The position numbers and the translations under genes are program-made. Positions 1 to 59,383 of a stretch of DNA of 64,000 nt are shown here, in pieces. Under the pieces are notes generated by a model that saw nothing but the letters and a program-made list of their open reading frames with translations, was not told the origin of the DNA and made no database searches. The stretch's first letter is position 1. Each line of letters starts with the position of its first letter. Location: NCBI RefSeq assembly GCF_017565645.3, contig NZ_CP086138.1, forward strand, positions 184,586 through 248,585. The letters run 5' to 3'. Source of the stretch: Bradyrhizobium barranii subsp. barranii. GTDB taxonomy: Bacteria > Pseudomonadota > Alphaproteobacteria > Rhizobiales > Xanthobacteraceae.

Positions 1-1816
1 GATCGACGTGACCCGCTTGGCGCGTAATTGTACCGACTGGTATCCGCTCCTGGATATCTGTGGTCTACGTGGCTGCCTGATCGCCGACCGCGATGGTGTC
101 TATGATCCGGGCACTCCCAACGGACGGTTGCTTCTCGGGCTGAAGGGTTCGATCTCCGAGCTTGAGCTACATACGATCCGCAGCCGGCTGACCGCCGGCC
201 TGCTGGCCAAAGCCGAACGCGGCGAACTTGCGGTTATGCTGCCAATCGGGCTGATGCGGGACCCGAGCGGTGTGGTCGTTAAGGATCCCGACATGGCCGT
301 GCAAGGGCGGCTCGGTCTCGTCTTCCAGTTATTCCTGCAGCTGCGCAGCGTTGCCAAGGTCATGCGAGCGTTGAACGAGCGTGACCTGGAACTGCCGCGT
401 CGTGATCGATATGGCGATTTGTGCTGGACGCGCGCGACGCTGGCTGCCGTCGCGGCGATCTTGAAGAACCCCGCATACGCGGGCGCCTTTGTCTATGGAC
501 GAACCCGCTTCCGGCCGCCGAAGCGGGAGGGGGCCCTGCCACAAAAGGCTCCGCGGCCGATGGAGGAGTGGCGGATCGTCGTTAAAGATCGATATCCAGC
601 CTATATCGACTGGCCAATTTATGAAAAAATCCGATCCGTCATCAGAGATAACCGAGCCGAATACATGCGCATCAAAACCCGCGGCGCGCCTCGCAATGGC
701 GAGCTCCTGCTCCACGGCATTGCCTGGTGCGCACGATGTGGCCATAAGATGTACGTCCGCTACAAGGGCGGCGGCGAATATGTATGCAATCACCTGCGTA
801 CCCAGGAAGGTCAGCCAACCTGCCAACACATCCGCGCCGCCCATATCGATGCAGCCGTTGGCGACGCATTCCTAACCGCACTAGCGCCGGCCGAACTCGA
901 TGCCTTGTCGCGCTCCCGCCGGGTGCAGCAGCAGACGAACAATGCGCTACGCTCCAGTGCAGAACGAGAGCTCGAGCGCAAGCGATACACGGCGGCGCTC
1001 GCCGAACGGCAGTTCAACCGAGCTGATCCAGATAATCGGTTGGTCGCCTCGGAACTCGAGCGTCGATGGGAAGCGGCGCTAAACGACGTGCGCGCCGCCG
1101 AAGAGGCGCTTGCCCGACAGACGCCGCCCAAAGCCATCACACAAGTGGCCATAAGCAAGGAGCTCAACGACAAGGTCATCAGCCTCACCGGCCGCCTCCC
1201 GCAGATATGGGGTGACGAGACTATCTCGGATGCGCATCGCAAGGCGTTGTTGCGATGTCTCATCGAAAAGGTCGTTCTCGACCGCGGTGAGCGCGACTTG
1301 GCCCTGGCTAGGATCGTCTGGCGGGGAGGCGCCGTGACGGAGCTCGAAGTGAAGATGAGCGTCAACTCCGTCACCAGATTGACGCGAGGCACAGAGATGC
1401 GGGAACGCCTTCTGACGCTCGCTCGCGACGGCGTCCCAGACGACAAGATCGCCACAATCCTTACTCGGGAAGGTCACCGCTCTCCCCGTTGCGCCGATAA
1501 GGTGCTGCCTATCACCGTTGGGCGGCTCCGTCGTGCCGCCGCCATCAAGGTAACTGCCCAGCGCAGCCGATGGGAGCATGACGACTCATACCTCAGCCCG
1601 CCCGAACTGGCCCGAAGGCTCGAGATTCCAGTAAACTGGCTCTATGTTCAGATCCGAACCAAGCGTTTGCTAATTGATCGCCAGCCCAGCGGCGCCTATC
1701 TCTTCCCGAATACACCATCCGTTCTTCACGCCATCGGAGACCTTCGAAACCACGTCATCGCGCAACTTGATCTAAGAATCTGTCAGCCTAACAAGGAGGG
1801 GCATCAACATGGGTGA
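1..1816 (+). CDS. Large serine recombinase, copy 1 (5' end cut by window edge)
   Basis: The reading frame is open from base 2 and matches residues 94-695 of the complete copies at 6710 and 49675 without a visible difference. Only the N-terminal part of the resolvase domain, with the expected catalytic serine, is missing, because the window starts inside the gene. What remains is the rest of the catalytic domain, a recombinase domain, a Cys4 zinc-ribbon (CARCGHKMYV ... C ... C, about residues 240-275 of this fragment) and a coiled-coil-rich C-terminus. It should catalyse site-specific integration and excision of its own small element. The stop codon lies at the very end of the element, next to IS66 tnpB sequence. 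Confidence 0.93.
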   Translation, partial: IDVTRLARNCTDWYPLLDICGLRGCLIADRDGVYDPGTPNGRLLLGLKGSISELELHTIRSRLTAGLLAKAERGELAVMLPIGLMRDPSGVVVKDPDMAVQGRLGLVFQLFLQLRSVAKVMRALNERDLELPRRDRYGDLCWTRATLAAVAAILKNPAYAGAFVYGRTRFRPPKREGALPQKAPRPMEEWRIVVKDRYPAYIDWPIYEKIRSVIRDNRAEYMRIKTRGAPRNGELLLHGIAWCARCGHKMYVRYKGGGEYVCNHLRTQEGQPTCQHIRAAHIDAAVGDAFLTALAPAELDALSRSRRVQQQTNNALRSSAERELERKRYTAALAERQFNRADPDNRLVASELERRWEAALNDVRAAEEALARQTPPKAITQVAISKELNDKVISLTGRLPQIWGDETISDAHRKALLRCLIEKVVLDRGERDLALARIVWRGGAVTELEVKMSVNSVTRLTRGTEMRERLLTLARDGVPDDKIATILTREGHRSPRCADKVLPITVGRLRRAAAIKVTAQRSRWEHDDSYLSPPELARRLEIPVNWLYVQIRTKRLLIDRQPSGAYLFPNTPSVLHAIGDLRNHVIAQLDLRICQPNKEGHQHG

Positions 1817-1818
1817 TC

Positions 1819-2112
1819 GAACAGCGCTTCGAACTGCACGCGCGTCAGATGCATGACGCCGTCGCTGATCTGCGGCCACTCGAAACGACCATCGCGGCCA
1901 AGGCGCTTGTAGACCAAAACGAGGCCCGTGCCGTCCCATAGCAAAATCTTCAGCCGGTCGGCGCGCTTCGAACGAAAAACCACGATCAGGCCCGAATGCG
2001 GATCGAGCCCAAGCGTGTTTTGCACAAGACCGGCCAGCGCGTCGTGCCCACACCGGAAGTCAACAGGACGCACAGCAAGCACAATCCGCAGTCCCTGCGC
2101 CGGAATGATCAT
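1819..2112 (-). pseudogene. tnpB: IS66-1 tnpB, 3' end removed by serine-recombinase element
   Basis: Encodes the IS66 TnpB accessory protein (IPAQGLRIVLAVRPVDFRCG ... VVFRSKRADRLKILLWDG), nearly identical to the copy at 49379. The frame is interrupted after the FEALFD codons, where the serine-recombinase element begins; the EGLNW C-terminus seen at 52154 would lie beyond the window start. The start codon overlaps the tnpA stop as ATGA. TnpB is needed for IS66 transposition, so this copy should be inactive. Confidence 0.9.
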
Positions 2113-2487
2113 GCGCCGCGCTCGATCGCAGTCACGATCTCCGCGATCCGCACCGCCGACACGTCCGCATCCAGGCGGACCGAAACCTTGCCAATCGTAA
2201 TCTCGACGGGCCCCTCGCTCTTGCCTGACGCCGCTGGATCGCTCAGCTCGATCGACACGAAATCCGCCGCGTCGTCCGTGACCAATGCGAGCCGGCCAGC
2301 ACGCGCCAATCTGCGCCACGTCGTCAACTGCTGGGCCTTCACACCATAACGCCGTGCGACATCACATACCCGGGCGTCGGGCTTCATGCTCTCGAAAACA
2401 GCGCGCCCCTTGATCTCCGCAGACCATAACCGGCCTCCAGAACGCGTCCGGCGCGTAAGCTTCCCTACAAAGCCATCAGCTTCGGCT
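2109..2487 (-). pseudogene. tnpA: IS66-1 tnpA, 5' truncated by IS21
   Basis: IS66 TnpA-like helix-turn-helix protein (VCDVARRYGVKAQQLTTWRR). It matches 48984-49382 except for a few substitutions (for example D for H and A for V). The homology stops at about 2487, in the codons for EADGF, where an IS21 istA fragment begins, so the start codon and IS66 left end are lost. Confidence 0.88.
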
Positions 2488-6117: not shown

Positions 6118-6270
6118 CTACGCGGCCGGCAGCAATTTCTCCCTCGCAACGGGCAGCGCGTCAAGGAAGGTTTGCATGGGTGTTTTTCCATAGCACCATC
6201 GTCCCTGATGCGGGCGCGTTTCGTTGTACGCCGTCACCCAACCATCGAGATCATTCTGCAACTCGTCGAT
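6118..6270 (-). pseudogene. IS481-like transposase, C-terminal fragment
   Basis: The last 50 codons of an integrase-core transposase: LDGWVTAYNETRPHQGRWCY, GKTPMQTFLDALPVAREKLL. The N-RPHQGRWC-GKTP pattern is typical of IS481. Upstream it is fused in frame to the 3' end of an IS66 tnpB (DGMDWKRV), so the open frame at 6118-6420 is a chimera of three mobile elements and not a gene. Confidence 0.85.
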
Positions 6271-6316
6271 GGGCGGCTTGACCGCCGCGGTCCGGACCCG
6301 CTTCCAGTCCATCCCA
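6271..6316 (-). pseudogene. tnpB: IS66-2 tnpB, 3' piece
   Basis: Codes for GMDWKRVRTAAVKPP, the conserved C-terminal tail of TnpB. It is the third piece of one tnpB gene whose other parts lie at 8800-9026 and 12445-12498. The break from the middle piece is the serine-recombinase element. Confidence 0.82.
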
Positions 6317-6329
6317 TCGAACGAGGGGA

Positions 6330-6713
6330 TTGAGGAATGTCCCTGATAGTGAGTCTGACGAATCATTTCCGGAGGTGGTCGAGGTTGGGGACCCCCACCA
6401 TCCTTTGTGGGGGCGCTCATATCGAGTGATTAGGAAGATCGGTCAGCGAGGCCGAGGCATTCCCGCTTCGTATGAAGTTGAGTATCGCGCAGGAAGCAGT
6501 CTTCTGATTCAAGCAACCGCAATCGAATATTATGAGCAAGAGGCAAATCAGATTAAGCTGAGTATGGAGGCTCTACTCGAGCTTTTATCGACAGCGGATT
6601 GTCCCGACGCACATGAGCATGGATCCAGCCGATCTTTGGTCGACGCTGACGCCCGCGCTCCGACGCCAGATCGTCGAAGACGTCGCCGCAATTTTGGCGG
6701 AGATCCCTCATGA
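6330..6713 (+). CDS. DUF5372-like protein of the serine-recombinase element
   Basis: A 127-aa frame starting at TTG just inside the element. The recognisable part is HHPLWGRSYRVIRKI followed by a beta-rich segment ending in MEALLELLSTA. It resembles the DUF5372 proteins (HP-hP-GR-F...) commonly encoded beside large serine recombinases; this match is from memory and not from a search. The arginine-rich tail (about residues 105-127) overlaps the small ORF and probably reflects that overlap. The stop overlaps the recombinase start (ATGA), so translation is probably coupled. An identical copy lies at 51759-52142. The function is unknown; a recombination-directionality role is only a guess. Confidence 0.7.
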   Translation: MRNVPDSESDESFPEVVEVGDPHHPLWGRSYRVIRKIGQRGRGIPASYEVEYRAGSSLLIQATAIEYYEQEANQIKLSMEALLELLSTADCPDAHEHGSSRSLVDADARAPTPDRRRRRRNFGGDPS

Positions 6714-6861
6714 AGTCCGAGCTGGTCACACCAAGCCACTTGGCGCGCAAAGCCGTAGTCTACATCCGGCAGTCGACGCCCCATCAGGTCGTAAGCAATC
6801 AGGAGAGCCTGCGCCTTCAATACGCGCTTCGCCAGCGCGCCCGCGAACTCGGATGGCGTGA
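6613..6861 (+). CDS. Small ORF of the serine-recombinase element
   Basis: The first 35 residues (MSMDPADLWSTLTPALRRQI ... VAAILAEI) form a convincing short helical protein. Similar leucine-rich small ORFs sit in front of other large serine recombinases. Beyond about residue 35 it overlaps the recombinase in another frame and looks like an antisense-quality tail. It may be a real small protein or an overlapping-frame artefact. The copy at 51611-51859 is the same. Confidence 0.4.
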   Translation: MSMDPADLWSTLTPALRRQIVEDVAAILAEIPHEVRAGHTKPLGAQSRSLHPAVDAPSGRKQSGEPAPSIRASPARPRTRMA

Positions 6862-8797
6862 GGCGGCCATCGACGTGATTGATGCCGATCTCGGGTTGAG
6901 CGGCGCGTCTATAGCACAGCGTAACGGCTTCAAGGAACTCGTTGGCCGTGTTGGCCTGAGTGAAGTGGGACTCATCCTGTCGATCGACGTGACCCGCTTG
7001 GCGCGTAATTGTACCGACTGGTATCCGCTCCTGGATATCTGTGGTCTACGTGGCTGCCTGATCGCCGACCGCGATGGTGTCTATGATCCGGGCACTCCCA
7101 ACGGACGGTTGCTTCTCGGGCTGAAGGGTTCGATCTCCGAGCTTGAGCTACATACGATCCGCAGCCGGCTGACCGCCGGCCTGCTGGCCAAAGCCGAACG
7201 CGGCGAACTTGCGGTTATGCTGCCAATCGGGCTGATGCGGGACCCGAGCGGTGTGGTCGTTAAGGATCCCGACATGGCCGTGCAAGGGCGGCTCGGTCTC
7301 GTCTTCCAGTTATTCCTGCAGCTGCGCAGCGTTGCCAAGGTCATGCGAGCGTTGAACGAGCGTGACCTGGAACTGCCGCGTCGTGATCGATATGGCGATT
7401 TGTGCTGGACGCGCGCGACGCTGGCTGCCGTCGCGGCGATCTTGAAGAACCCCGCATACGCGGGCGCCTTTGTCTATGGACGAACCCGCTTCCGGCCGCC
7501 GAAGCGGGAGGGGGCCCTGCCACAAAAGGCTCCGCGGCCGATGGAGGAGTGGCGGATCGTCGTTAAAGATCGATATCCAGCCTATATCGACTGGCCAATT
7601 TATGAAAAAATCCGATCCGTCATCAGAGATAACCGAGCCGAATACATGCGCATCAAAACCCGCGGCGCGCCTCGCAATGGCGAGCTCCTGCTCCACGGCA
7701 TTGCCTGGTGCGCACGATGTGGCCATAAGATGTACGTCCGCTACAAGGGCGGCGGCGAATATGTATGCAATCACCTGCGTACCCAGGAAGGTCAGCCAAC
7801 CTGCCAACACATCCGCGCCGCCCATATCGATGCAGCCGTTGGCGACGCATTCCTAACCGCACTAGCGCCGGCCGAACTCGATGCCTTGTCGCGCTCCCGC
7901 CGGGTGCAGCAGCAGACGAACAATGCGCTACGCTCCAGTGCAGAACGAGAGCTCGAGCGCAAGCGATACACGGCGGCGCTCGCCGAACGGCAGTTCAACC
8001 GAGCTGATCCAGATAATCGGTTGGTCGCCTCGGAACTCGAGCGTCGATGGGAAGCGGCGCTAAACGACGTGCGCGCCGCCGAAGAGGCGCTTGCCCGACA
8101 GACGCCGCCCAAAGCCATCACACAAGTGGCCATAAGCAAGGAGCTCAACGACAAGGTCATCAGCCTCACCGGCCGCCTCCCGCAGATATGGGGTGACGAG
8201 ACTATCTCGGATGCGCATCGCAAGGCGTTGTTGCGATGTCTCATCGAAAAGGTCGTTCTCGACCGCGGTGAGCGCGACTTGGCCCTGGCTAGGATCGTCT
8301 GGCGGGGAGGCGCCGTGACGGAGCTCGAAGTGAAGATGAGCGTCAACTCCGTCACCAGATTGACGCGAGGCACAGAGATGCGGGAACGCCTTCTGACGCT
8401 CGCTCGCGACGGCGTCCCAGACGACAAGATCGCCACAATCCTTACTCGGGAAGGTCACCGCTCTCCCCGTTGCGCCGATAAGGTGCTGCCTATCACCGTT
8501 GGGCGGCTCCGTCGTGCCGCCGCCATCAAGGTAACTGCCCAGCGCAGCCGATGGGAGCATGACGACTCATACCTCAGCCCGCCCGAACTGGCCCGAAGGC
8601 TCGAGATTCCAGTAAACTGGCTCTATGTTCAGATCCGAACCAAGCGTTTGCTAATTGATCGCCAGCCCAGCGGCGCCTATCTCTTCCCGAATACACCATC
8701 CGTTCTTCACGCCATCGGAGACCTTCGAAACCACGTCATCGCGCAACTTGATCTAAGAATCTGTCAGCCTAACAAGGAGGGGCATCAACATGGGTGA
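6710..8797 (+). CDS. Large serine recombinase, copy 2
   Basis: A complete 695-aa protein. The N-terminal resolvase domain has the nucleophile in AVVYIRQSTPHQV (Ser at about residue 21) and LILSIDVTRLARN. The recombinase domain is about residues 175-280 and the Cys4 zinc-ribbon is CARCGHK ... YVCNHL. The C-terminus has a long coiled coil and a late helix-turn-helix-like segment (YLSPPELARRLEIPVNWLYV). The length fits large serine integrases and transposases. It should catalyse movement of the 2.48-kb element in which it lies. The start overlaps the upstream ORF by 4 bp. The protein is identical to the copy at 49675, which suggests recent spread. Confidence 0.95.
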   Translation: MKSELVTPSHLARKAVVYIRQSTPHQVVSNQESLRLQYALRQRARELGWREAAIDVIDADLGLSGASIAQRNGFKELVGRVGLSEVGLILSIDVTRLARNCTDWYPLLDICGLRGCLIADRDGVYDPGTPNGRLLLGLKGSISELELHTIRSRLTAGLLAKAERGELAVMLPIGLMRDPSGVVVKDPDMAVQGRLGLVFQLFLQLRSVAKVMRALNERDLELPRRDRYGDLCWTRATLAAVAAILKNPAYAGAFVYGRTRFRPPKREGALPQKAPRPMEEWRIVVKDRYPAYIDWPIYEKIRSVIRDNRAEYMRIKTRGAPRNGELLLHGIAWCARCGHKMYVRYKGGGEYVCNHLRTQEGQPTCQHIRAAHIDAAVGDAFLTALAPAELDALSRSRRVQQQTNNALRSSAERELERKRYTAALAERQFNRADPDNRLVASELERRWEAALNDVRAAEEALARQTPPKAITQVAISKELNDKVISLTGRLPQIWGDETISDAHRKALLRCLIEKVVLDRGERDLALARIVWRGGAVTELEVKMSVNSVTRLTRGTEMRERLLTLARDGVPDDKIATILTREGHRSPRCADKVLPITVGRLRRAAAIKVTAQRSRWEHDDSYLSPPELARRLEIPVNWLYVQIRTKRLLIDRQPSGAYLFPNTPSVLHAIGDLRNHVIAQLDLRICQPNKEGHQHG

Positions 8798-8799
8798 TC

Positions 8800-9026
8800 G
8801 ACCAGGGCCATCAACTGCGCAGCATTCAGCTGCACCCGATGATGTCCGATTCGTGGCCAGCAGAACCTCGCTTTCTCCAGCCGTTTTAAATAGAGGCACA
8901 CGCCGGAGCCATCCCACCATACGATCTTTATTCTGTCGGCTCTTTGGCTCGGAACACATAGAGTGAACCGTCGAACGGATCTGAGCCCGCATCGCGCACC
9001 AGCGCAACAAGGCCATCGATACCCTT
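8800..9026 (-). pseudogene. tnpB: IS66-2 tnpB, middle piece
   Basis: Reads GIDGLVALVRDAGSDPFDGS, LYVFRAKE, then after frameshifts IKIVWWDGSGVCLYLKRLEK and AQLMALVD. It is the central part of TnpB, cut at one end by the RIT element (9027) and at the other by the serine-recombinase element (8799). In-frame stops show that it had already decayed. Confidence 0.82.
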
Positions 9027-9054
9027 ACGATTATGTGGTGCACCACATAATCGT
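9027..9054. repeat. 28-bp perfect palindrome at the RIT left end
   Basis: ACGATTATGTGGTG is followed by its exact reverse complement. Its half contains ACGATTATG, related to the CGATTATGCGGAG repeated in the terminal repeat, so it is probably a recombinase-binding or crossover site. Confidence 0.85.
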
Positions 9055-19269: not shown

Positions 19270-19846
19270 AGTAACTCGCCGCCGGCTTGAACTGAGTGGC
19301 GGGTGCTGTCAAATAACATACAACGACGTCTGCTAACCTACAAAGGTATCATACAGCCCCGTTGTTAGCGCTACCAATGAAAGCGTTCAAGATGAATATC
19401 GAGTTTCGATCGGCATTTTCATCTTTCACAAAGCAGTCATCCGGCCTGAACGGCAACAAAGCAGGTGGAGCATGATGCGAGCCTCCAAGTTTTGAACTCC
19501 CAGCAGGCGCTTCATCCTGGAGCTAGGCAGGAACGGGGTTGCCGGCCGAGACCTCCCGAATGGCGGGATTGCCCAAGTTGCCCATCTGAGACGGAGAAGA
19601 CCGAGGGGCTGCTGACCATCGATATGATCAGCTGAAGCGGACGGCAGAAGGGCGCCAATCGCAATGTGTGTTTGGGCAGCAAATGGAGGAAATCGTCCTT
19701 GCATTACGTTTTGACATCTTCATCTCAATGATCTGGATAGCCGGCAAGTGGTTGTTGCGCAAGGACCTTCAATGGGAATCAGTGACTCCGTCACGTGCCA
19801 TGATTGTTCAGCATCGATGACTCTTTCGGGCAAGCACGTCGCAAAG
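19270..19846. other. No gene seen
   Basis: A lower-GC stretch without a credible ORF on either strand. It contains no recognised IS end apart from the boundary with the IS3 element at 19851. Confidence 0.5.
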
Positions 19847-19932
19847 AGCTGGCCCCGCAAATTCGGACAGTAGCTTGAGTGGATTTTCTGCCTGACAGCG
19901 GCGAGGATTCTTGCTGCGAATCAGGAGCGAAG

Positions 19933-20238
19933 ATGACGAAGAAGAGCCGCCGGACGCATTCTCCGGCATTCAAGGCGAAGGTTGCTTTGGCTGCGGTCAA
20001 AGGCGACAAGACACTGGCGGAGCTGGCGCAGCTGTTTGATGTTCATCCGAACCAGATCACGATCTGGAAAAACCAGCTCCTGGAAGGCGCCGCCGGCGTG
20101 TTTGGGCATGACAAGACATCGGCCGAGACGCCGGTCGATTTGAAGGCGTTACATGCCAAGATCGGCGAGCTGGCGTTGGAAAACGATTTTTTGTCCGGCG
20201 CGCTCACCAAGGCGGGCCTGCTGAGCGCAAAGCGATGA
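19933..20238 (+). CDS. IS3-family OrfA
   Basis: 101 aa starting MTKKSRRTHSPAFKAKVALA, with a helix-turn-helix (LAELAQLFDVHPNQITIWKN) and a C-terminal coiled-coil (LKALHAKIGELALENDFLSG). The ATG at 19933 is chosen over an upstream in-frame start because homologues begin MTKK. The stop overlaps orfB (ATGA). OrfA binds the IS ends and can be fused to OrfB by frameshifting. Confidence 0.93.
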   Translation: MTKKSRRTHSPAFKAKVALAAVKGDKTLAELAQLFDVHPNQITIWKNQLLEGAAGVFGHDKTSAETPVDLKALHAKIGELALENDFLSGALTKAGLLSAKR

Positions 20239-21062
20239 TCGACCGCGATCATGATCTTTCTATCGTGCGCCAGGCGAAGGTCCTGAAGCTGGCTCGCAGC
20301 ACGGTCTACTATGAACCTCGGCCAGTTTCGGCCGAGGACCTTGCCTTGATGCGTCGGCTCGATGAGCTGCATCTCGATTATCCCTTCGCGGGAGCGCGTA
20401 TGCTGCGATCGTTGCTGCGGCGGGAGGGCGTATACGCCGGTCGCCGCCACATCGCGACGCTGATGAAGCGCATGCGGATCGAGGCGGTCTATCGTCGCCC
20501 GAACACGAGCAAGCCGGCTCCGGGTCACAAGATCTACCCGTACCTGTTGCGCGGATTGAAGATCGAGCGGCCCGACCATGCGTGGGCAATGGACATCACC
20601 TACATTCCGATGCGGCGTGGCTTCGTCTATCTCGCGGCGGTCGTCGATGTGTTCAGCCGACGGGTCCTGGCCCATCGCGTCTCGATCACAATGGAGGCGG
20701 CCTTCTGCGTCGAAGCGGTCCAGGAGGCGTTGGCGAAGCACGGCAGGCCCGAGATTTTCAACACGGATCAGGGCAGCCAGTTCACCAGCCTCGAGTTCAC
20801 CGATGTGCTGCTGGACGCGAAGATCGCCATCAGCATGGACGGCAAGGGCGCCTGGCGCGACAACGTGTTTGTCGAGCGGCTCTGGCGCACGGTCAAATAC
20901 GAAGAAGTTTATCTCCGCGCCTACGACAGCGTGTCCGAGGCGCGAGCGTCAATTGCCAAGTATCTGGCCTTCTACAATCAGGGACGCCCTCACTCGAGCC
21001 TTGACGGGCGCACGCCCGACGAGGCTTACTTCGGCACGCAAGCTATGGTGATGGCCGCATGA
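20235..21062 (+). CDS. IS3-family OrfB transposase
   Basis: A 275-aa integrase-core protein with the full DDE triad: WAMDITYIPMRRG (Asp), IFNTDQGSQFTS (Asp) and NVFVERLWRTVKYEE (Glu, followed by the K seven residues later). An HTH_21 region with YPFAGARMLRSLLRREGVYA lies in the N-terminal third. The frame and length are normal. OrfA-OrfB together should mobilise the 1.35-kb element. Confidence 0.95.
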   Translation: MIDRDHDLSIVRQAKVLKLARSTVYYEPRPVSAEDLALMRRLDELHLDYPFAGARMLRSLLRREGVYAGRRHIATLMKRMRIEAVYRRPNTSKPAPGHKIYPYLLRGLKIERPDHAWAMDITYIPMRRGFVYLAAVVDVFSRRVLAHRVSITMEAAFCVEAVQEALAKHGRPEIFNTDQGSQFTSLEFTDVLLDAKIAISMDGKGAWRDNVFVERLWRTVKYEEVYLRAYDSVSEARASIAKYLAFYNQGRPHSSLDGRTPDEAYFGTQAMVMAA

Positions 21063-23535: not shown

Positions 23536-25779
23536 TTGACCCCAATGACCGTCCACTGCGCCGATGACCGAAACCTGGCCGATGCGGCGCCCGCATCGGC
23601 ACTAGGGTGCCTGATTATCGTCGCACGACAGCACGGGCTGCACCTCACGTCCTCACAGCTCATTCAAGACAACCTTCTGCGGGAAGAGAACGTCACACTC
23701 CATCAGCTTGTCCGCTGTGCGGAGAAAGCAGGCATGCGCGCGAAGTGCGTCAAGCTCGATTGGAGCGGGCTGTCTCATCTGAAGAAGGCGCTCCCGGTCA
23801 TCATTCGGCTTCGCAATGGGAGCCACATGGTACTCCAGCGTGTCGAGGGAGACGCCCACAATACCCGCATCGTGCTGAGGGACCCGAATGCCGCGGAAGA
23901 CGCGCTGCTCGTGATCGACCAACCACGCTTTGAAGGTATCTGGTCCGGCGATCTGGTCCTGATCAAGCGCAGCTACGAGATATCGGACGAAGCGCAGCCG
24001 TTCAGTTTCGGCCTGGTAGCCGCGCTGTTGTTCCGCGAACGCCGCATGGTCCGCGACGTCGCGATTGCCGCCGTGATCCTCGGGCTTCTCAGCTTGGCGC
24101 CGATCATGTTCTGGCGCCTGTTGTCGGACAAGGTGATCTTCTACAAGGCGTACAACACGTTCTATGTGCTCTGCGTCGCGATGCTGGTGGTCATAGCCTT
24201 CGAGGCAGCCTTCTCGTTCTTGAGACAATTCCTTGTCCATCGCTTGACCACCAGGCTGGACGTCAAATTGTCGACCTACGTCTTCGAAAAGGTCCTCAAT
24301 CTTCCCATCGACTATTTCGAGCAGACGCCCGTCGGCCTCGTCGCGCGCGACATTCGCGAAGTCTTTCGCATCCGCTCGTTCCTAATGGGGCAATTGTTCG
24401 GCACCATTCTCGACTCTACGACGCTGATGTTCTTCCTGCCCGTCATGTTCTTCTTCAGCCCCGTCATGACGTTCGTGGTTCTCGCCTTGTCGGCATTCAT
24501 CGTCGCGTGGCTCGTCCTAATGTTGCCGAATTACCGCAAGGCGTCGACTGCCGTGCTGGCCGCGGAGGGCGCGCAGGGCGCGTTTTTGGTTCAAACTTTG
24601 AATGGGATCCGGACGATCAAGTCCCTCGCGCTCGATACGCGGCAGCGCCACATGTGGGATGTTCTGGTCGCACGCGTTGCCAAGGCGCGGCTTGTGGAAG
24701 GCATGACTGGAAACGCCATCCAGTCGGTGGTGCGTCCCCTGGAGCGGCTGGCCGTCAGCGGCTCCTATGCGCTCGGCGTCTATCTCGCGCTCGAAAGCAA
24801 TGACCCGGTCTATATCGGGGCGCTGTTCTCATTCCTGCTGTTGTCACAGCGCGTCTCGGGTCCGCTGATGCAGATGGCGCAGCTCATCAATCAATACGAC
24901 GAGGCACGAAGTGCGGTTGCAACCGTCGGCAATCTCGTCAACCTTCCTCCCGAAGAGGGACGTTCCGGCCATGGCGTGCGTTCGCCACTCGAGGGCAAGG
25001 TGGAGTTTTCCGGCGTCACCTTCAAATACAAGGGAGCGCTATCGCCAACGCTAAACAACATCTCCTTCGAGATTCCGCTAGGGACTACTTTAGGCGTGAT
25101 GGGCAAGAGCGGATCTGGCAAGACCACGATTGCGCGGCTGCTGCAGCGGCTGCATTGCGACTATGACGGATTGATCAAGATCGATGGCATTGACGTTCGC
25201 GAGTACGACATCGACCATCTCCGTCGTAACGTGGGTGTGGTGCTCCAGGAGAATTTTCTTTTCAGTGGGACCATCCGCGAAAACATCACAGCGGCCACGC
25301 CGGACGCGTCGTTCGATGATGTGGTCAGGGCGGCGAGGCTGGCGGGTGCGGAAGAATTCATCGACAAGCTGCCGCGTGGCTACGAGACGCATATCTATGA
25401 AGGCTCGCCGAACCTCTCGGGAGGGCAGCGGCAGCGGCTTGCGATCGCGCGTGCGTTGATCGTCAACCCGCCCATTCTGATTCTCGATGAGGCGACAAGC
25501 GCGCTAGACGCCGACAGCGAGACGATCGTGAACGCCAACATAACGCGCCTCGCGCATGGCCGGACGCTGATTATCATCTCGCATCGCCTGTCGTCCCTGG
25601 CAAAGGCGGACGCAATTCTCGTCCTTAATCGTGGTGTGGTCGACGATATCGGGCGGCATGAGGAGCTCCTGGCGTGCAACGATATCTACAGCTCGCTGTG
25701 GTATCAGCAGAACGCGCATTTGGTGCCGGCAGCCCGCAACGATCGGTCAACATTCGGGAGTCCAACGCTTGTCTCGTGA
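23536..25779 (+). CDS. Type I secretion ABC transporter with C39-like domain
   Basis: 747 aa. Residues about 15-135 form a peptidase-C39-like domain in which the usual catalytic Cys is replaced (SALGCLIIVARQHG, Ser at the position of Cys), so it should bind cargo but not cleave it, as in HlyB. About 170-460 is a six-helix transmembrane exporter domain. The nucleotide-binding domain has Walker A GKSGSGKTT (about 522), signature LSGGQRQR (about 627), Walker B ILILDEATSALD and ISHRL. It sits in the inner membrane and should export the RTX protein with the adaptor encoded next. No outer-membrane TolC-like gene is in the window. Confidence 0.93.
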   Translation: MTPMTVHCADDRNLADAAPASALGCLIIVARQHGLHLTSSQLIQDNLLREENVTLHQLVRCAEKAGMRAKCVKLDWSGLSHLKKALPVIIRLRNGSHMVLQRVEGDAHNTRIVLRDPNAAEDALLVIDQPRFEGIWSGDLVLIKRSYEISDEAQPFSFGLVAALLFRERRMVRDVAIAAVILGLLSLAPIMFWRLLSDKVIFYKAYNTFYVLCVAMLVVIAFEAAFSFLRQFLVHRLTTRLDVKLSTYVFEKVLNLPIDYFEQTPVGLVARDIREVFRIRSFLMGQLFGTILDSTTLMFFLPVMFFFSPVMTFVVLALSAFIVAWLVLMLPNYRKASTAVLAAEGAQGAFLVQTLNGIRTIKSLALDTRQRHMWDVLVARVAKARLVEGMTGNAIQSVVRPLERLAVSGSYALGVYLALESNDPVYIGALFSFLLLSQRVSGPLMQMAQLINQYDEARSAVATVGNLVNLPPEEGRSGHGVRSPLEGKVEFSGVTFKYKGALSPTLNNISFEIPLGTTLGVMGKSGSGKTTIARLLQRLHCDYDGLIKIDGIDVREYDIDHLRRNVGVVLQENFLFSGTIRENITAATPDASFDDVVRAARLAGAEEFIDKLPRGYETHIYEGSPNLSGGQRQRLAIARALIVNPPILILDEATSALDADSETIVNANITRLAHGRTLIIISHRLSSLAKADAILVLNRGVVDDIGRHEELLACNDIYSSLWYQQNAHLVPAARNDRSTFGSPTLVS

Positions 25780-27112
25780 TGGTGCGCTTGCGACTGTTCG
25801 CCAATTTCAATCGGAAACGGATGCGATCCGAGAGGAGGCTGAGCCTCTGGTCGCGCGAGCAACGCTGTTTGTCCTCTCGGCCTTCCTGGTCACGATCGTT
25901 GCCATTCTGGCTCTGACGCGGATAGATCGCGTCATCACCAGCGTTGGCGGGCGGATCGTGCCGGTGGGACAGATCCGCGTCCTTCAGGCCCTGGATCAAT
26001 CGATTATTAAGACGATCGACGTGCGGGAAGGCGAGCAGGTGCAACCGGGACAGCTTATTGCGACCCTGGACGCGACCTTTACGTCGGCGGACCTGACCCA
26101 GGCGAAGTTGCAGATCGCTAGCCTCGAGACTCAGGTGGCACGCGATGAAGCCGAGCTGAACCAGCATCCGCTGGTTTTTGCGAGCAAGCCAGACCCCAAC
26201 GACCAAAAATACGCAGCCTTGCAGAAGGCGCTCTATGATCAGAGGATGGCGCAATATACCGCGCAGATCAATAGTTTCGATTCGAGGATCAAGCAGACCC
26301 AGGCGACGATGGAGAAGCTTCGCGGGGACGATGCGAGATATCGGCAGCGTGACGAGATCTTGCAGAAGATCGAGACCATGCGCACGACGCTGGCCGAGCA
26401 CGGCACGGGCTCGCAGCTCAATATGTTCATTTCCCAGGACTCAAGGCTTGAATTGCTGCGGACCCTGGAGAACACCCACAACAGCCTAATCGAAGCCCAG
26501 AATACGCTCGCGGTGTCAACCGCAGACCGTGACGCCTTCAAGCAGCAGTGGTTTGCGCAACTGAGTCAGGATCTCGTGGCGACCCGCAACAAGCTGGACG
26601 AGGCGAGAGCGTCTTATGAGAAGGCGCTCAGGCACCAGGATCTGGTCCGATTGACCGCTGCCGAAGACTCGGTCGTGTTGACGATGGCAAGGCTCTCGGT
26701 CGGATCGGTGCTAAAGCCCGGCGATCCTTTCATTACGCTGATGCCGACCGACACCAAGCTCGAGGCTGAAATTCGCATCGCCTCGCGCGATGTCGGTTTC
26801 ATCCGGCCCGGAGACCCCTGCACGATGCGGATCGATGCGTTCAATGCCGCGGAGCATGGTACAGCCGATGGCAAAGTGCGCTGGATCAGCGAGGGCGCGT
26901 TCACCACCGACGATGATGGAAAGCCTATCGAAGCCTACTACAAGGCGCGGTGCTCGGTGGACTCAGCCAACTTCAAGGATGTCCCAAAAAACTTTCGCCT
27001 GATTCCTGGCATGACGCTTGCGGGGGACGTCCATGTCGGCACGCGGGCGGTCGGAATGTATCTGCTTGGCGGAATGCTGAAGGGTATCCGGGAGGCCATG
27101 CGTGAGCCATGA
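25769..27112 (+). CDS. HlyD-family type I secretion adaptor
   Basis: The frame is open from 25631, but the part before 25769 is the shadow of the transporter gene. The TTG at 25769 (LSRDGALATVRQF), overlapping the transporter stop by 11 bp, is the likeliest start, giving 447 aa. One N-terminal membrane helix (LFVLSAFLVTIVAILAL) is followed by the lipoyl/barrel-sandwich half (IKTIDVREGEQVQPGQLIAT), a long periplasmic coiled coil (about 100-290) and the second half (VVLTMARLSVGSVLKPGDPF). It bridges the ABC exporter and an outer-membrane channel. Confidence 0.92.
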   Translation: MSRDGALATVRQFQSETDAIREEAEPLVARATLFVLSAFLVTIVAILALTRIDRVITSVGGRIVPVGQIRVLQALDQSIIKTIDVREGEQVQPGQLIATLDATFTSADLTQAKLQIASLETQVARDEAELNQHPLVFASKPDPNDQKYAALQKALYDQRMAQYTAQINSFDSRIKQTQATMEKLRGDDARYRQRDEILQKIETMRTTLAEHGTGSQLNMFISQDSRLELLRTLENTHNSLIEAQNTLAVSTADRDAFKQQWFAQLSQDLVATRNKLDEARASYEKALRHQDLVRLTAAEDSVVLTMARLSVGSVLKPGDPFITLMPTDTKLEAEIRIASRDVGFIRPGDPCTMRIDAFNAAEHGTADGKVRWISEGAFTTDDDGKPIEAYYKARCSVDSANFKDVPKNFRLIPGMTLAGDVHVGTRAVGMYLLGGMLKGIREAMREP

Positions 27113-29196: not shown

Positions 29197-29202
29197 GTAA
29201 CA

Positions 29203-48885: not shown

Positions 48886-48983
48886 GTAAGCGGAGCTTTT
48901 CTCCCATTTGATTGACTGGTTTCGCTTCGGCTTTCGCTCTGCGATCCTTGGCTTGTCAGAGAGCCGAGAGGAGGCTGAAGGCG

Positions 48984-49382
48984 ATGGAACAATCGGGGGA
49001 GGAAGCCGAAGCTGATGGCTTTGTGGGGAAGCTTACGCGCCGGACGCGTTCTGGAGGCCGGTTATGGTCTGCGGAGATCAAGGGGCGCGCTGTTTTCGAG
49101 AGCATGAAGCCCGACGCCCGGGTATGTGATGTCGCACGGCGTTATGGTGTGAAGGCCCAGCAGTTGACGACGTGGCGCAGATTGGCGCGTGCTGGCCGGC
49201 TCGCATTGGTCACGGACCACGCGGCGGATTTCGTGTCGATCGAGCTGAGCGATCCAGTGGCGTCAGGCAAGAGCGAGGGGCCCGTCGAGATTACGATTGG
49301 CAAGGTTTCGGTCCGCCTGGATGCGGACGTGTCGGCGGTGCGGATCGCGGAGATCGTGACTGCGATCGAGCGCGGCGCATGA
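48984..49382 (+). CDS. tnpA: IS66-3 TnpA
   Basis: 132 aa from ATG 48984 (MEQSGEEAEADGFVGKLTRR); the open frame extends upstream to 48912, but that part overlaps the IS end. Helix-turn-helix VCDVARRYGVKAQQLTTWRR and a C-terminal domain VEITIGKVSVRLDADVSAVR. The stop overlaps the tnpB ATG. One of three IS66 transposition proteins; intact here. Confidence 0.9.
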   Translation: MEQSGEEAEADGFVGKLTRRTRSGGRLWSAEIKGRAVFESMKPDARVCDVARRYGVKAQQLTTWRRLARAGRLALVTDHAADFVSIELSDPVASGKSEGPVEITIGKVSVRLDADVSAVRIAEIVTAIERGA

Positions 49383-49672
49383 TCATTCCGGCGCAGGGAC
49401 TGCGGATTGTGCTTGCTGTGCGTCCTGTTGACTTCCGGTGCGGGCACGACGCGCTGGCCGGTCTTGTGCAAAACACGCTTGGGCTCGATCCGCATTCGGG
49501 CCTGATCGTGGTTTTTCGTTCGAAGCGCGCCGACCGGCTGAAGATTTTGCTATGGGACGGCACGGGCCTCGTTTTGGTCTACAAGCGCCTTGGCCGCGAT
49601 GGTCGTTTCGAGTGGCCGCAGATCAGCGACGGCGTCATGCATCTGACGCGCGTGCAGTTCGAAGCGCTGTTC
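49379..49672 (+). pseudogene. tnpB: IS66-3 tnpB, 5' part, interrupted by the serine-recombinase element
   Basis: MIIPAQGLRIVLAVRPVDFR ... FEALF, then the element; the 3' part is at 52154-52216 (EGLNWKRVGERIVATPAAAN). Precise excision with a GA core would restore an intact TnpB of about 118 residues, so loss of function may be reversible. Confidence 0.92.
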
Positions 49673-49674
49673 GA

Positions 49675-51762
49675 TCACCCATGTTGATGCCCCTCCTTGT
49701 TAGGCTGACAGATTCTTAGATCAAGTTGCGCGATGACGTGGTTTCGAAGGTCTCCGATGGCGTGAAGAACGGATGGTGTATTCGGGAAGAGATAGGCGCC
49801 GCTGGGCTGGCGATCAATTAGCAAACGCTTGGTTCGGATCTGAACATAGAGCCAGTTTACTGGAATCTCGAGCCTTCGGGCCAGTTCGGGCGGGCTGAGG
49901 TATGAGTCGTCATGCTCCCATCGGCTGCGCTGGGCAGTTACCTTGATGGCGGCGGCACGACGGAGCCGCCCAACGGTGATAGGCAGCACCTTATCGGCGC
50001 AACGGGGAGAGCGGTGACCTTCCCGAGTAAGGATTGTGGCGATCTTGTCGTCTGGGACGCCGTCGCGAGCGAGCGTCAGAAGGCGTTCCCGCATCTCTGT
50101 GCCTCGCGTCAATCTGGTGACGGAGTTGACGCTCATCTTCACTTCGAGCTCCGTCACGGCGCCTCCCCGCCAGACGATCCTAGCCAGGGCCAAGTCGCGC
50201 TCACCGCGGTCGAGAACGACCTTTTCGATGAGACATCGCAACAACGCCTTGCGATGCGCATCCGAGATAGTCTCGTCACCCCATATCTGCGGGAGGCGGC
50301 CGGTGAGGCTGATGACCTTGTCGTTGAGCTCCTTGCTTATGGCCACTTGTGTGATGGCTTTGGGCGGCGTCTGTCGGGCAAGCGCCTCTTCGGCGGCGCG
50401 CACGTCGTTTAGCGCCGCTTCCCATCGACGCTCGAGTTCCGAGGCGACCAACCGATTATCTGGATCAGCTCGGTTGAACTGCCGTTCGGCGAGCGCCGCC
50501 GTGTATCGCTTGCGCTCGAGCTCTCGTTCTGCACTGGAGCGTAGCGCATTGTTCGTCTGCTGCTGCACCCGGCGGGAGCGCGACAAGGCATCGAGTTCGG
50601 CCGGCGCTAGTGCGGTTAGGAATGCGTCGCCAACGGCTGCATCGATATGGGCGGCGCGGATGTGTTGGCAGGTTGGCTGACCTTCCTGGGTACGCAGGTG
50701 ATTGCATACATATTCGCCGCCGCCCTTGTAGCGGACGTACATCTTATGGCCACATCGTGCGCACCAGGCAATGCCGTGGAGCAGGAGCTCGCCATTGCGA
50801 GGCGCGCCGCGGGTTTTGATGCGCATGTATTCGGCTCGGTTATCTCTGATGACGGATCGGATTTTTTCATAAATTGGCCAGTCGATATAGGCTGGATATC
50901 GATCTTTAACGACGATCCGCCACTCCTCCATCGGCCGCGGAGCCTTTTGTGGCAGGGCCCCCTCCCGCTTCGGCGGCCGGAAGCGGGTTCGTCCATAGAC
51001 AAAGGCGCCCGCGTATGCGGGGTTCTTCAAGATCGCCGCGACGGCAGCCAGCGTCGCGCGCGTCCAGCACAAATCGCCATATCGATCACGACGCGGCAGT
51101 TCCAGGTCACGCTCGTTCAACGCTCGCATGACCTTGGCAACGCTGCGCAGCTGCAGGAATAACTGGAAGACGAGACCGAGCCGCCCTTGCACGGCCATGT
51201 CGGGATCCTTAACGACCACACCGCTCGGGTCCCGCATCAGCCCGATTGGCAGCATAACCGCAAGTTCGCCGCGTTCGGCTTTGGCCAGCAGGCCGGCGGT
51301 CAGCCGGCTGCGGATCGTATGTAGCTCAAGCTCGGAGATCGAACCCTTCAGCCCGAGAAGCAACCGTCCGTTGGGAGTGCCCGGATCATAGACACCATCG
51401 CGGTCGGCGATCAGGCAGCCACGTAGACCACAGATATCCAGGAGCGGATACCAGTCGGTACAATTACGCGCCAAGCGGGTCACGTCGATCGACAGGATGA
51501 GTCCCACTTCACTCAGGCCAACACGGCCAACGAGTTCCTTGAAGCCGTTACGCTGTGCTATAGACGCGCCGCTCAACCCGAGATCGGCATCAATCACGTC
51601 GATGGCCGCCTCACGCCATCCGAGTTCGCGGGCGCGCTGGCGAAGCGCGTATTGAAGGCGCAGGCTCTCCTGATTGCTTACGACCTGATGGGGCGTCGAC
51701 TGCCGGATGTAGACTACGGCTTTGCGCGCCAAGTGGCTTGGTGTGACCAGCTCGGACTTCAT
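49675..51762 (-). CDS. Large serine recombinase, copy 3
   Basis: 695 aa, identical to the protein at 6710: resolvase domain with Ser at about residue 21 (YIRQSTPHQV), recombinase domain, Cys4 zinc-ribbon, coiled coil and a terminal helix-turn-helix-like region. The three copies show no visible amino-acid difference over the shared region, which argues for recent transposition or gene conversion. The stop codon lies two bases inside the element end. Confidence 0.95.
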   Translation of the reverse strand: MKSELVTPSHLARKAVVYIRQSTPHQVVSNQESLRLQYALRQRARELGWREAAIDVIDADLGLSGASIAQRNGFKELVGRVGLSEVGLILSIDVTRLARNCTDWYPLLDICGLRGCLIADRDGVYDPGTPNGRLLLGLKGSISELELHTIRSRLTAGLLAKAERGELAVMLPIGLMRDPSGVVVKDPDMAVQGRLGLVFQLFLQLRSVAKVMRALNERDLELPRRDRYGDLCWTRATLAAVAAILKNPAYAGAFVYGRTRFRPPKREGALPQKAPRPMEEWRIVVKDRYPAYIDWPIYEKIRSVIRDNRAEYMRIKTRGAPRNGELLLHGIAWCARCGHKMYVRYKGGGEYVCNHLRTQEGQPTCQHIRAAHIDAAVGDAFLTALAPAELDALSRSRRVQQQTNNALRSSAERELERKRYTAALAERQFNRADPDNRLVASELERRWEAALNDVRAAEEALARQTPPKAITQVAISKELNDKVISLTGRLPQIWGDETISDAHRKALLRCLIEKVVLDRGERDLALARIVWRGGAVTELEVKMSVNSVTRLTRGTEMRERLLTLARDGVPDDKIATILTREGHRSPRCADKVLPITVGRLRRAAAIKVTAQRSRWEHDDSYLSPPELARRLEIPVNWLYVQIRTKRLLIDRQPSGAYLFPNTPSVLHAIGDLRNHVIAQLDLRICQPNKEGHQHG

Positions 51763-51859
51763 GAGGGATCTCCGCCAAAATTGCGGCGACGTCTTCGACG
51801 ATCTGGCGTCGGAGCGCGGGCGTCAGCGTCGACCAAAGATCGGCTGGATCCATGCTCAT
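51611..51859 (-). CDS. Small ORF of the serine-recombinase element, copy 3
   Basis: Same sequence as the ORF at 6613: a 35-residue leucine-rich helical start, then overlap with the recombinase gene. It may be real only in its first third. Confidence 0.4.
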   Translation of the reverse strand: MSMDPADLWSTLTPALRRQIVEDVAAILAEIPHEVRAGHTKPLGAQSRSLHPAVDAPSGRKQSGEPAPSIRASPARPRTRMA

Positions 51860-52142
51860 GTGCGTCGGGACAATCCGCTGTCGATAAAAGCTCGAGTAGA
51901 GCCTCCATACTCAGCTTAATCTGATTTGCCTCTTGCTCATAATATTCGATTGCGGTTGCTTGAATCAGAAGACTGCTTCCTGCGCGATACTCAACTTCAT
52001 ACGAAGCGGGAATGCCTCGGCCTCGCTGACCGATCTTCCTAATCACTCGATATGAGCGCCCCCACAAAGGATGGTGGGGGTCCCCAACCTCGACCACCTC
52101 CGGAAATGATTCGTCAGACTCACTATCAGGGACATTCCTCAA
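51759..52142 (-). CDS. DUF5372-like protein, copy 3
   Basis: Identical to the ORF at 6330: 127 aa, TTG start, HPLWGRSYRVIRK core, with the stop overlapping the recombinase start. Its conservation with the element suggests that it is part of the mobility module. Confidence 0.7.
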   Translation of the reverse strand: MRNVPDSESDESFPEVVEVGDPHHPLWGRSYRVIRKIGQRGRGIPASYEVEYRAGSSLLIQATAIEYYEQEANQIKLSMEALLELLSTADCPDAHEHGSSRSLVDADARAPTPDRRRRRRNFGGDPS

Positions 52143-52153
52143 TCCCCTCGTTT

Positions 52154-52216
52154 GAAGGGCTGAACTGGAAGCGAGTGGGCGAACGGATTGTCGCGACGCC
52201 AGCTGCGGCGAACTGA
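52154..52216 (+). pseudogene. tnpB: IS66-3 tnpB, 3' part
   Basis: GLNWKRVGERIVATPAAAN and stop: the TnpB tail separated from its 5' part by the serine-recombinase element. Confidence 0.88.
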
Positions 52217-52269
52217 CTCAGACCCGACAACCTGTTTCGCGCGGGGCTTTGGGATGATAGCTTGCGGAT

Positions 52270-53895
52270 GTGCCGCCGTCCCCCATTGATCCCGCCCGTC
52301 TTGCAGCGCTGCCCGCCGATGTGCGCGCGCTCTTCCGCGCGCAGGAAGCGATGATTGAAGCCGAGCGTCGTCGCGCAGACGATGAATGCTCGGCGCGCCT
52401 TCATGTCGAGAGTGAACTGGCTGCGTCCAAAGAGAGCGTCGAACGCCTCGAACTGCTCGTGAAGGAGTACGAGCGCGCACGTTTCGGTAAACGCTCGGAG
52501 AAGTTCAATCCCGATCAGATGCAACTGGTTCTCGAGGACATCGAGATTGCCATCGCCGAAGTCCAGGAACGCCAGGACGATCGTGCGCGCCGCGCCGGCA
52601 CGGCGCCGTCCAGCCGCCGGACCAGGCGCGCTGCCCGTGCCTTTCCCGCGCACCTGCCGCGCATCGAGCAGGTGATCGAACCCGAGAACCTCGAGTGTCC
52701 CTGCGGCTGCGGCCGGATGGTCCAGATCGGCGAGGATCGCTCCCGCCGTCTCGATGTCATGGCCGCCCAGTATCGTGTGATCGAGACGGTGCGACCGCGC
52801 TACGCCTGCGCAAAGGGCTGCACCGGTGTTGCTCAGGCGCCGGCGCCCGCCCATCTCGTGGAGGGTGGCATCCCCACCGAGGCGCTGCTGGCGCAGGTGG
52901 CGGTCGCCAAGTTCAGCGAGCACATGCCACTCTATCGTCAGTCGCAGGTTCTGGCTCGGCATGGCATCTTCATCGATCGCGCCGTTCTGGCAGACTGGAT
53001 GGGAACGGTCGCCTTCCACCTCGCGCCGCTGGTCGAGCGCATGAGCGTCGTGATGAAGCAATCGGGCCGCTTGTTCATAGACGAGACCAGGGCGCCTGTG
53101 CTCGATCCGGGCCGGGGCCGAACGAAGACCGGCTATCTGTGGGCTGTCCTGCGCGACGATCGCGGCCACGGCGGCGCTGATCCACCAATCGTGGTCTACC
53201 ACTACGCGCCAGGACGCGGTGGTGACCATGCTGAGCGCATCCTCGAGGGCTTCGACGGCATCCTTCAGGTCGACGGATACCAGGGCTATCATCGGCTCGC
53301 ACGGCCCAAGCGCAAAGGCGGCGTGCCGCTGCGGCTGGCCGCATGTTGGTCCCACTCAAGGCGCAAGATCATCGCAGCGACTCCGAAAGCCGGCTCACCC
53401 ATCGCCGAAGCCGTTCTCGCGCGCATCGCCGCACTCTATGCGATCGAGAAGGAGATCCGTGGCGCCGACGCCCCGGCTCGGCAAACGACCCGTAACGAGC
53501 GATCACGGCCGCTCGTCGCTGAACTCGAGAGGTTTCTGCGCGAGCAAGCCGCTCGCCTGTCGCCGGGCAGCGAGATGGGCAAGGCGATCGCCTATCTCCT
53601 GAACCATTGGGATGGCCTCACCTTGTTTCTCGACGATGGTTGCGTTGAGATGGACACCAATCCCGTCGAAAATCAAATCAGGCCGCTGACTCTGACGCGT
53701 AAAAATAGTTTATTTGCTGGTCACGACGAAGGTGGTCGTTCATGGGCGCGCATAGCTTCGCTCATCGCCACCTGCAAAATCAACAGCGTGGAGCCCTACG
53801 TCTGGATGAAAGCGACGCTCAAAGCGATCGCAACCGGTCACCCGCAGTCCCGGATCGACGAGCTCCTGCCCTGGTCGTTCGGCCGCACCTCGTAA
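52270..53895 (+). CDS. tnpC: IS66-3 TnpC transposase
   Basis: 541 aa, GTG start. Layout of IS66 DDE transposases: an N-terminal coiled coil (LHVESELAASKESVERLELL), a zinc-binding cluster (CPCGCGRMVQIGEDRS), an IS66 core with LFIDETRAPVLDPGRGRTKT (Asp), ILQVDGYQGYHRLARP (Asp) and DTNPVENQIRPLTLTRKN (Glu), and the C-terminal helix set (SLIATCKINSVEPYVWM). Intact. It is the catalytic subunit of IS66 but needs TnpA and TnpB. Confidence 0.95.
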   Translation: MPPSPIDPARLAALPADVRALFRAQEAMIEAERRRADDECSARLHVESELAASKESVERLELLVKEYERARFGKRSEKFNPDQMQLVLEDIEIAIAEVQERQDDRARRAGTAPSSRRTRRAARAFPAHLPRIEQVIEPENLECPCGCGRMVQIGEDRSRRLDVMAAQYRVIETVRPRYACAKGCTGVAQAPAPAHLVEGGIPTEALLAQVAVAKFSEHMPLYRQSQVLARHGIFIDRAVLADWMGTVAFHLAPLVERMSVVMKQSGRLFIDETRAPVLDPGRGRTKTGYLWAVLRDDRGHGGADPPIVVYHYAPGRGGDHAERILEGFDGILQVDGYQGYHRLARPKRKGGVPLRLAACWSHSRRKIIAATPKAGSPIAEAVLARIAALYAIEKEIRGADAPARQTTRNERSRPLVAELERFLREQAARLSPGSEMGKAIAYLLNHWDGLTLFLDDGCVEMDTNPVENQIRPLTLTRKNSLFAGHDEGGRSWARIASLIATCKINSVEPYVWMKATLKAIATGHPQSRIDELLPWSFGRTS

Positions 53896-54015
53896 TTCTC
53901 CGTCGTTGCCGCCTCCATACCCCCCGCCAACGATTTGCAAACACGTTGATCAACAGACTGCAATCCCCACGCCAAACCTTTGCGAGTGGGACGCGAACGT
54001 TGCTTACCGATCACT

Positions 54016-59301: not shown

Positions 59302-59383
59302 CTTCGCTCCTGATTCGCAGCAAGAATCCTCGCCGCTGTCAGGCAGAAAATCCACTCAAGCTACTGTCCGAATTTGCGGGGCC

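Follow-up and report, generated by a model that had tools for sequence, protein, structure and literature searches.

A large serine recombinase element at a conserved codon of IS66 tnpB in Bradyrhizobium barranii, and its relatives in other mobile-element genes

The window analysed here, i.e. the whole stretch of 64,000 nt (G000:C3:184586-248585) from the 11.4 Mb genome (4 contigs) of Bradyrhizobium barranii subsp. barranii, contains three copies of an element coding for a large serine recombinase (LSR), of which copies 2 and 3 each comprise 2,481 bp and copy 1 is truncated by the window start (Table 1). The complete copies were already described in an earlier note on this DNA as being of equal length and encoding identical proteins, and the comparison bears this out, with complete nucleotide identity over 2,468 nt and 100% identical recombinases, except that the ends of all three copies had to be shifted to the positions given in Table 1. 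The recombinase has Resolvase, Recombinase and zinc-ribbon domains, all above the Pfam cut-off, it matches a PHROG integrase family (E = 1.5e-58), and R20 and S22 are, together with other residues, invariant across 20 relatives. Its best NCBIfam match is XisF, which at 84.1 of 375 bits lies far below the cut-off. With respect to the small frames, the Pfam search of the window ORF1 gave no match to DUF5372, and of ten ORF1 relatives one scored above the cut-off of this family (26.2 of 25 bits), seven matched more weakly and two did not match, while for the possible ORF2 a Pfam match was absent at E values up to 10. No cargo beyond ORF1, the possible ORF2 and the recombinase was seen within the 2,481 bp, and judged by its gene content the element would be a minimal site-specific mobile element consisting of two small ORFs and an LSR.

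Elsewhere in the window, positions 23536-33129 encode a Peptidase-C39-type ABC transporter, an HlyD-like protein, a Sel1-repeat protein and a protein of 1,308 aa with three glycosyltransferase domains in a row, possibly an export and polysaccharide locus. Positions 19845-20463 and 58771-59389 form an inverted pair of 619 nt with 99% complementarity, which is probably another repeated mobile element.

Table 1. Positions of the element copies, their genes and the interrupted IS66 genes in the window
Feature	Position	Strand	Basis
Element copy 1, truncated by window start	1..1819	+	repeat comparison, reading frames
tnpB frame disrupted by copy 1; its last few codons lie in the element	1804..2319	-	PF05717, E 8.3e-30
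tnpB tail (DGMDWKRV...), far side of copy 2	6271..6319	-	reading frame
Element copy 2, 2,481 bp counting a single core dinucleotide	6320..8800	+	junction model and identity to copy 3
Left core of copy 2, AA	6320..6321	.	core reading at junction
ORF1, 127 aa, DP-HPL-G protein, weakly DUF5372-like	6330..6713	+	ORF list and comparison with relatives
Possible small ORF2, overlaps ORF1 and the start of the recombinase	6613..6861	+	ORF list
LSR, 695 aa	6710..8797	+	Pfam domains, PHROG match
Right core of copy 2, AC	8801..8802	.	core reading at junction
5' part of interrupted tnpB remnant at copy 2	8803..9046	-	reading frame; among 33 tnpB-lineage fragments, 30 of which match TnpB_IS66
IS66 unit with copy 3, 5,122 bp, AGTGATCG on both sides	48886..54007	+	unit comparison, locus L066
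5' part of tnpB disrupted by copy 3 (open frame)	49130..49671	+	TnpB_IS66, E 2.5e-29 (fragment 49130-49672)
Element copy 3, 2,481 bp counting a single core dinucleotide	49672..52152	-	repeat comparison, junctions
Recombinase of copy 3	49675..51762	-	ORF list, protein identity
tnpB tail (EGLNWKRV...), far side of copy 3	52154..52216	+	reading frame
tnpC (IS66 transposase) of the copy-3 unit	52270..53895	+	position; an uninterrupted relative with the same tnpB has an IS66 transposase annotated there

All three copies adjoin an antisense IS66 TnpB frame (PF05717) at the codons for L-[F/V]-[E/D]-G-[L/M]-[N/D]-W, and the final tnpB codons resume across copy 2 (DGMDW) and copy 3 (EGLNW), so that reading frames and Pfam matches confirm the previously described position of the element at fixed conserved codons of tnpB. 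For copy 1 the far side is not in the window but is covered by locus L005, where the flank equals that of copy 3 apart from a small difference. Copies 1 and 3 had been placed in two closely related IS66 elements and explained by co-transposition; the co-transposition holds, whereas the two hosts turned out to be one and the same IS66. Copy 2 had rightly been assigned to a different IS66 and hence to a separate insertion, as its TnpB is 48% identical to that of copy 3 over 50 aa while the elements are identical. Because the tnpB tail of the copy-2 IS66 continues in frame into an IS481-transposase-like fragment at 6118-6270 (30 bits, cut-off 224), this IS66 is regarded as a remnant.

The core dinucleotide was read from 24 rows, in which both ends were legible in seven antisense and five sense copies; the unused rows are those in which an end was missed by the pattern or the left end was misplaced (L083, L099, L126). 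In the antisense copies, the base before A is G at the right end (attR) in 7/7, whereas at the left end (attL) 5/7 have A, C or T there, and the next two bases are A-N, matching at both ends in 6/7. Since G is constant only at attR and the empty site of copy 3 carries the attL base, the core is A-N, and the GA core initially proposed is rejected. A-N is complementary to bases 1 and 2 of the second Leu/Phe/Ile/Val codon. The cores of copy 2 do not match, AA standing on the left and AC on the right. This is expected if an AA-core element used an AC target, and such an element could have come from one of the copies in the IS66 unit. The readings in sense copies (CT/CT in L089, TT/TT in L096, TT/CT in L087 and L232, CA/CT in L090) largely complement A-N. 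In L116, the core is AT at both ends, a palindromic dinucleotide at an Ile codon that could permit a change of orientation.

Empty tnpB sites, to which the earlier note had pointed, are available for alignment: out of 190 genus genomes searched, five (G005, G010, G021, G123 and G188) contain the joined flanks of copy 3 whole, with 323/323 identical positions, and two further genomes match at 96% (G066) and 89% (G073). In plasmids, 29 records match, with 100% identity in 8 of the 15 records listed, and for the joined flanks of L082 a near-full empty site was not found in the plasmid collection. Furthermore, the IS66 of the window unit is uninterrupted in the annotated plasmid record of Bradyrhizobium barranii 323S2, where the IS66 transposase is present. 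Overall, the target TnpBs of this lineage are widely divergent, yet they represent a single gene family hit at a single codon.

Relatives of the recombinase at E <= 1e-100 were found in 48/195 genomes of the genus sample (five candidates being scored in each), a match at E <= 1e-150 in 2/347 genomes of the order sample, and matches to a 20-member profile in 7/289 genomes of the class and 12/349 of the phylum sample, all counts including the window genome. The species collection contributed 35 loci, mostly from Alphaproteobacteria with a few labelled Burkholderiaceae, Betaproteobacteria, Isosphaeraceae and Gemmataceae, and the plasmid collection 464 records with a relative at E <= 1e-30, the sample of relatives as a whole being weighted to Bradyrhizobium. 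Two peculiarities of gene structure were seen among these relatives. In L143, L174, L185, L188, L194, L236 and L246, an extra frame of helix-turn-helix appearance (SRPTYYQAKA...LLPRKRGPK) precedes the recombinase and is apparently part of the element, and L122-L126 and L128 have in common a TAG stop near the recombinase C-terminus that looks like the natural end of a shorter protein.

The initial reading proved too narrow, as related lineages occupy the genes of other mobile elements. Sorted by LSR lineage, the targets are tnpB (at two sites), tnpC, istB of IS21 (at two sites), istA, group II intron reverse transcriptase (RT) genes, tyrosine recombinase genes and others. Pfam searches with one flank fragment per copy, which were picked for recurrence between loci or for a motif and therefore name the targets but not their frequency, yielded TnpB (30), Resolvase (2) and HTH_Tnp_1 (1) for the 33 fragments of the tnpB lineage. 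For the 56 fragments of other lineages, each of which may match several families, the matches were IstB (26), DDE_Tnp_IS66 (7), RVT_1 (6), Phage_integrase (5), rve (3), TnpB (2), rve_3, Zn_Tnp_IS91 and DDE_Tnp_1 (1 each).

How often the elements lie within such genes was tallied for 123 copies, i.e. 134 recombinase frames of at least 450 aa minus 11 with identical flanks, against reference fragments from the same loci that had been chosen by recurrence or motif, self-matches being excluded. The same gene family was found on both sides and in the same orientation in 65/123 copies, compared with 10/702 recombinase-sized intervals placed at random in the window and in 20 stretches around copies of the window genome, element-overlapping placements being omitted. 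These 65 copies divide into C-terminal TnpB (22), IstB (21), TnpC (9), RT (7), tyrosine recombinase (4) and the second TnpB site (2). A further 31 copies had a one-sided match, eight a TnpB-like tail only and 19 no assigned target; since 221 of the 702 control placements also had a one-sided match (and one a tail), one-sided matches are weak evidence. Among the 19 unassigned copies, L129, L189, L192, L197, L198, L110 and L245 have flanks that are mobile-element genes by eye, whereas the junctions of L092 and L093 could not be placed in a mobile-element gene. Frames below 450 aa stood outside the tally, L106, L108, L111, L114 and others being read by eye only; in L114, from a Gemmataceae record, the left flank looks tyrosine-recombinase-like (LLEAGADIRTVQ). 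A looser tally including self-matches (71 two-sided, 30 one-sided and 22 none of 123; control 5/583) was replaced by the stricter one, and weak TnpB matches at a position of about 278 nt on the left side proved to be an artefact of reference fragment L090, which ran into the element and was shortened before the tallies.

By eye, the junctions fall at LLGP/PGxGKTH (Walker A) or VFGEP in IstB, at D-x-EKF/FDRVNHD or IPKADGxKRPL in the group II intron RT, at FAGS-D-GA in TnpC, at LLGH in tyrosine recombinases and at RKPRDK or NRSY in IstA, as well as at YYN/RTH or KGAWRD in IS3-type, at YKCRWQVELFF in IS4-type and near H-x-HC in IS91 genes. Several of these we take to be catalytic or core motifs of their families. 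L132 even resides inside another LSR, which is split at residue 126 (YD), with residues 6-126 on one side and 122-336 on the other.

A FastTree phylogeny of 113 recombinases (frames of at least 560 aa) shows that relatives have their target in common. On the 101 tips with a target, carrying 13 labels, 13 changes suffice, compared with 61.4 on average and no fewer than 55 when labels were shuffled 500 times irrespective of relatedness; the 12 unlabelled tips were pruned before counting, so that changes to unlabelled targets are not included, and up to 22 labels as well as the split of the two istB sites were assigned by eye. In the labelled lineages, every change of target leads from one mobile-element gene to another.

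These data bear on the idea that the recombinases accept many sites with a short core and that insertions outside dispensable mobile genes are simply lost. Mobile genes are dense in these genomes, as seen from the one-sided control placements, mismatched cores such as AA/AC in copy 2 do occur, and in the tnpB lineage two copies have junctions outside tnpB, L092 on the right side and L093 on both sides. The earlier note had named copies in unrelated sequence as a finding that would count against it; such copies exist but are few, and most copies are not of this kind. However, survival alone would spread the positions across genes, whereas all legible two-sided C-terminal tnpB cases fall at one dinucleotide and the lineages keep their own targets, so that loose specificity is considered unlikely.

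In addition to insertion, the element is carried by its host. The window genome has 18 full-length recombinase copies, 17 of which are flanked by one IS66, in places truncated or rearranged. The full-length IS66 unit, recognised by TnpB (Pfam), tnpC (position and annotation of relatives), common ends and 8-bp duplications, comprises 5,122 bp with GTAAGC ends, and 13 such units were found among 20 stretches examined. The tnpC frame has 544 residues in 12/13 units, and the 8-bp target duplications match at 8/8 positions in 11/13, all 11 being different; therefore the unit has transposed with the element inside, in line with the suggestion that the element would ride on IS66 transposition. The TnpB of the unit terminates with ...LFDHPC within the element, replacing ...LFEGLNWKRVGERIVATPAAAN; this short TnpB may itself be functional, or other IS66 copies may aid the movement, the genome having 60 TnpB matches. 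A similar arrangement was seen in genome G145, where L159-L162 are four copies in tyrosine-recombinase genes whose right flanks are common over 1.2 kb, suggesting that this host element may also have moved with its insert.

Excisable intervening sequences have a precedent in the fdxN element and its recombinase XisF, and the element might likewise be a regulatory insert that silences IS genes until its removal restores them. XisF is in fact the best NCBIfam match, albeit at the low score given above, and a target gene of the istB, tnpC or RT kind should be inactivated by the insertion. As the IS66 with an interrupted tnpB still moved, and as none of the three candidates scored in the window genome was recognised as a restored copy of this IS66, this explanation appears very improbable.

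Fresh insertion is most evident from copies in divergent targets. Fourteen copies with an element identity of 87% or more (963-2,470 nt compared, some being truncated) fall into eight TnpB groups at identity thresholds of 70% and 80%, five at 60% and three at 50%. Moreover, the recombinase, which the earlier note described as always antisense to tnpB, is so within the window but not always in other species: the 22 two-sided insertions in C-terminal tnpB comprise 15 in antisense and 7 in sense orientation, and the L122-L128 subfamily contains both orientations at the same tnpB place. Antisense examples annotated as 'recombinase family protein' between tnpB and the IS66 transposase are found on plasmids of Rhizobium leguminosarum Vaf-108 and Bradyrhizobium sp. 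62B. That a recombinase gene entered one IS66 once as a mere passenger, all tnpB copies descending from it, might be assumed from the 17/18 copies moved with one IS66 as a whole unit, but it is hardly credible and is rejected as the sole account given the identity of copies 2 and 3 in TnpBs that differ by half, two copies in G162 that are identical over 1,600 nt compared while their TnpBs are 47% identical over 116 aa, the two orientations and the exact empty IS66, which together contradict the single shared insertion that the earlier note had named as a second finding against it. The comparison of elements and targets shows that the same or a near-identical element entered divergent tnpB genes at one codon, so that it spreads in two ways, by new insertion and as a passenger of IS66.

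We accordingly favour, with a probability of roughly 0.83, the reading that this is an LSR element which targets a tnpB codon, spreads by insertion and on IS66, and belongs to a clan that targets mobile genes. The recombinase would join attP of a circular form (GGTGATCG-AN-CGAGGGG) to attB, i.e. the tnpB codons for L-[L/F]-[E/D]-G-x-[D/N]-W, with crossover at the second L/F codon; the interrupted IS66 has itself moved and carried the element along. The junctions and exact empty sites, compared as sequences, fit such an attP x attB recombination at a dinucleotide core. As these codons are presumably under strong protein constraint, attB would be offered by many genomes at little cost to the cell. 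With somewhat less assurance, though still as the probable case, we propose that a clan of minimal LSR elements, found mostly in Alphaproteobacteria and thinly elsewhere, consists of parasites of mobile elements, each lineage being matched to one target-gene motif (e.g., Walker A of IstB, the RT motifs, FAGS of TnpC, LLGH of tyrosine recombinases or YD of a clan LSR) and evolving by motif switching, where the core would set the orientation and a palindromic AT core as in L116 could be a step towards reversal.

Several known systems resemble the element in part. In Tn5397 and other TndX-like transposons an LSR is likewise the only recognised transposition enzyme and the core is a dinucleotide, but here resistance or conjugation cargo was not seen and a lineage is tied to the motif of a gene family and not to many sites. 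Some IS66 elements carry passenger genes between tnpB and tnpC, and the element is also an extra gene in this place that is moved by IS66; here, however, the passenger is itself mobile: its ends are precise, empty sites exist, and it has inserted into unrelated copies of IS66. Inteins and homing introns also occupy conserved motifs in genes for proteins, which keeps related genes available as targets; this strategy is similar by analogy only, as there is no splicing here and the host gene remains interrupted, and the element is not a member of either group.

Among LSRs, Durrant et al. (2022; PMC10083194), as far as the available part of the text goes, describe enzymes that use a dinucleotide core and integrate into conserved coding sites, some clusters keeping one target gene, the targets including a magnesium chelatase/protease homologue, a prolyl isomerase and competence genes. 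Transposon genes are not named as targets in that part, whereas here lineage after lineage lies in mobile-element genes. The same text mentions TndX-like LSRs as a multi-targeting clade with DUF4368 in 63%; this domain is not among the Pfam matches of our recombinase, an absence compatible with membership of that clade. The nearest published idea found is that of the helper-embedded PICIs (HE-PICIs; Tommasini et al. 2023, PMC10111431), in which one integrase clade has subclades with different sites, 14 of them in prophage late genes; one PICI resides in an IS110 transposase gene. The likeness consists in one integrase clade with subclade-specific sites, all within the genes of another mobile element, but HE-PICIs are described there as phage satellites that need a helper phage, in contrast to a 2.5-kb LSR element in transposon, intron and recombinase genes, and their gene content (AlpA, replication and late zones) is absent from the 2,481 bp. 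An account of the present LSR clan was not found in full-text searches, most subscription papers and preprints lying outside their scope.

For genome annotation, a recombinase gene that lies within IS66 or interrupts a tnpB, istB or intron gene may thus be a mobile element in its own right. The related LSRs with different, inferable targets form a natural series, and for the lineage of the window exact empty sites are available; therefore, the acquisition of a new LSR specificity becomes directly testable. Taken together, these elements point to a layer of parasitism among simple mobile elements, which would depend on the conserved motifs of other selfish genes and not on genes of the cell.
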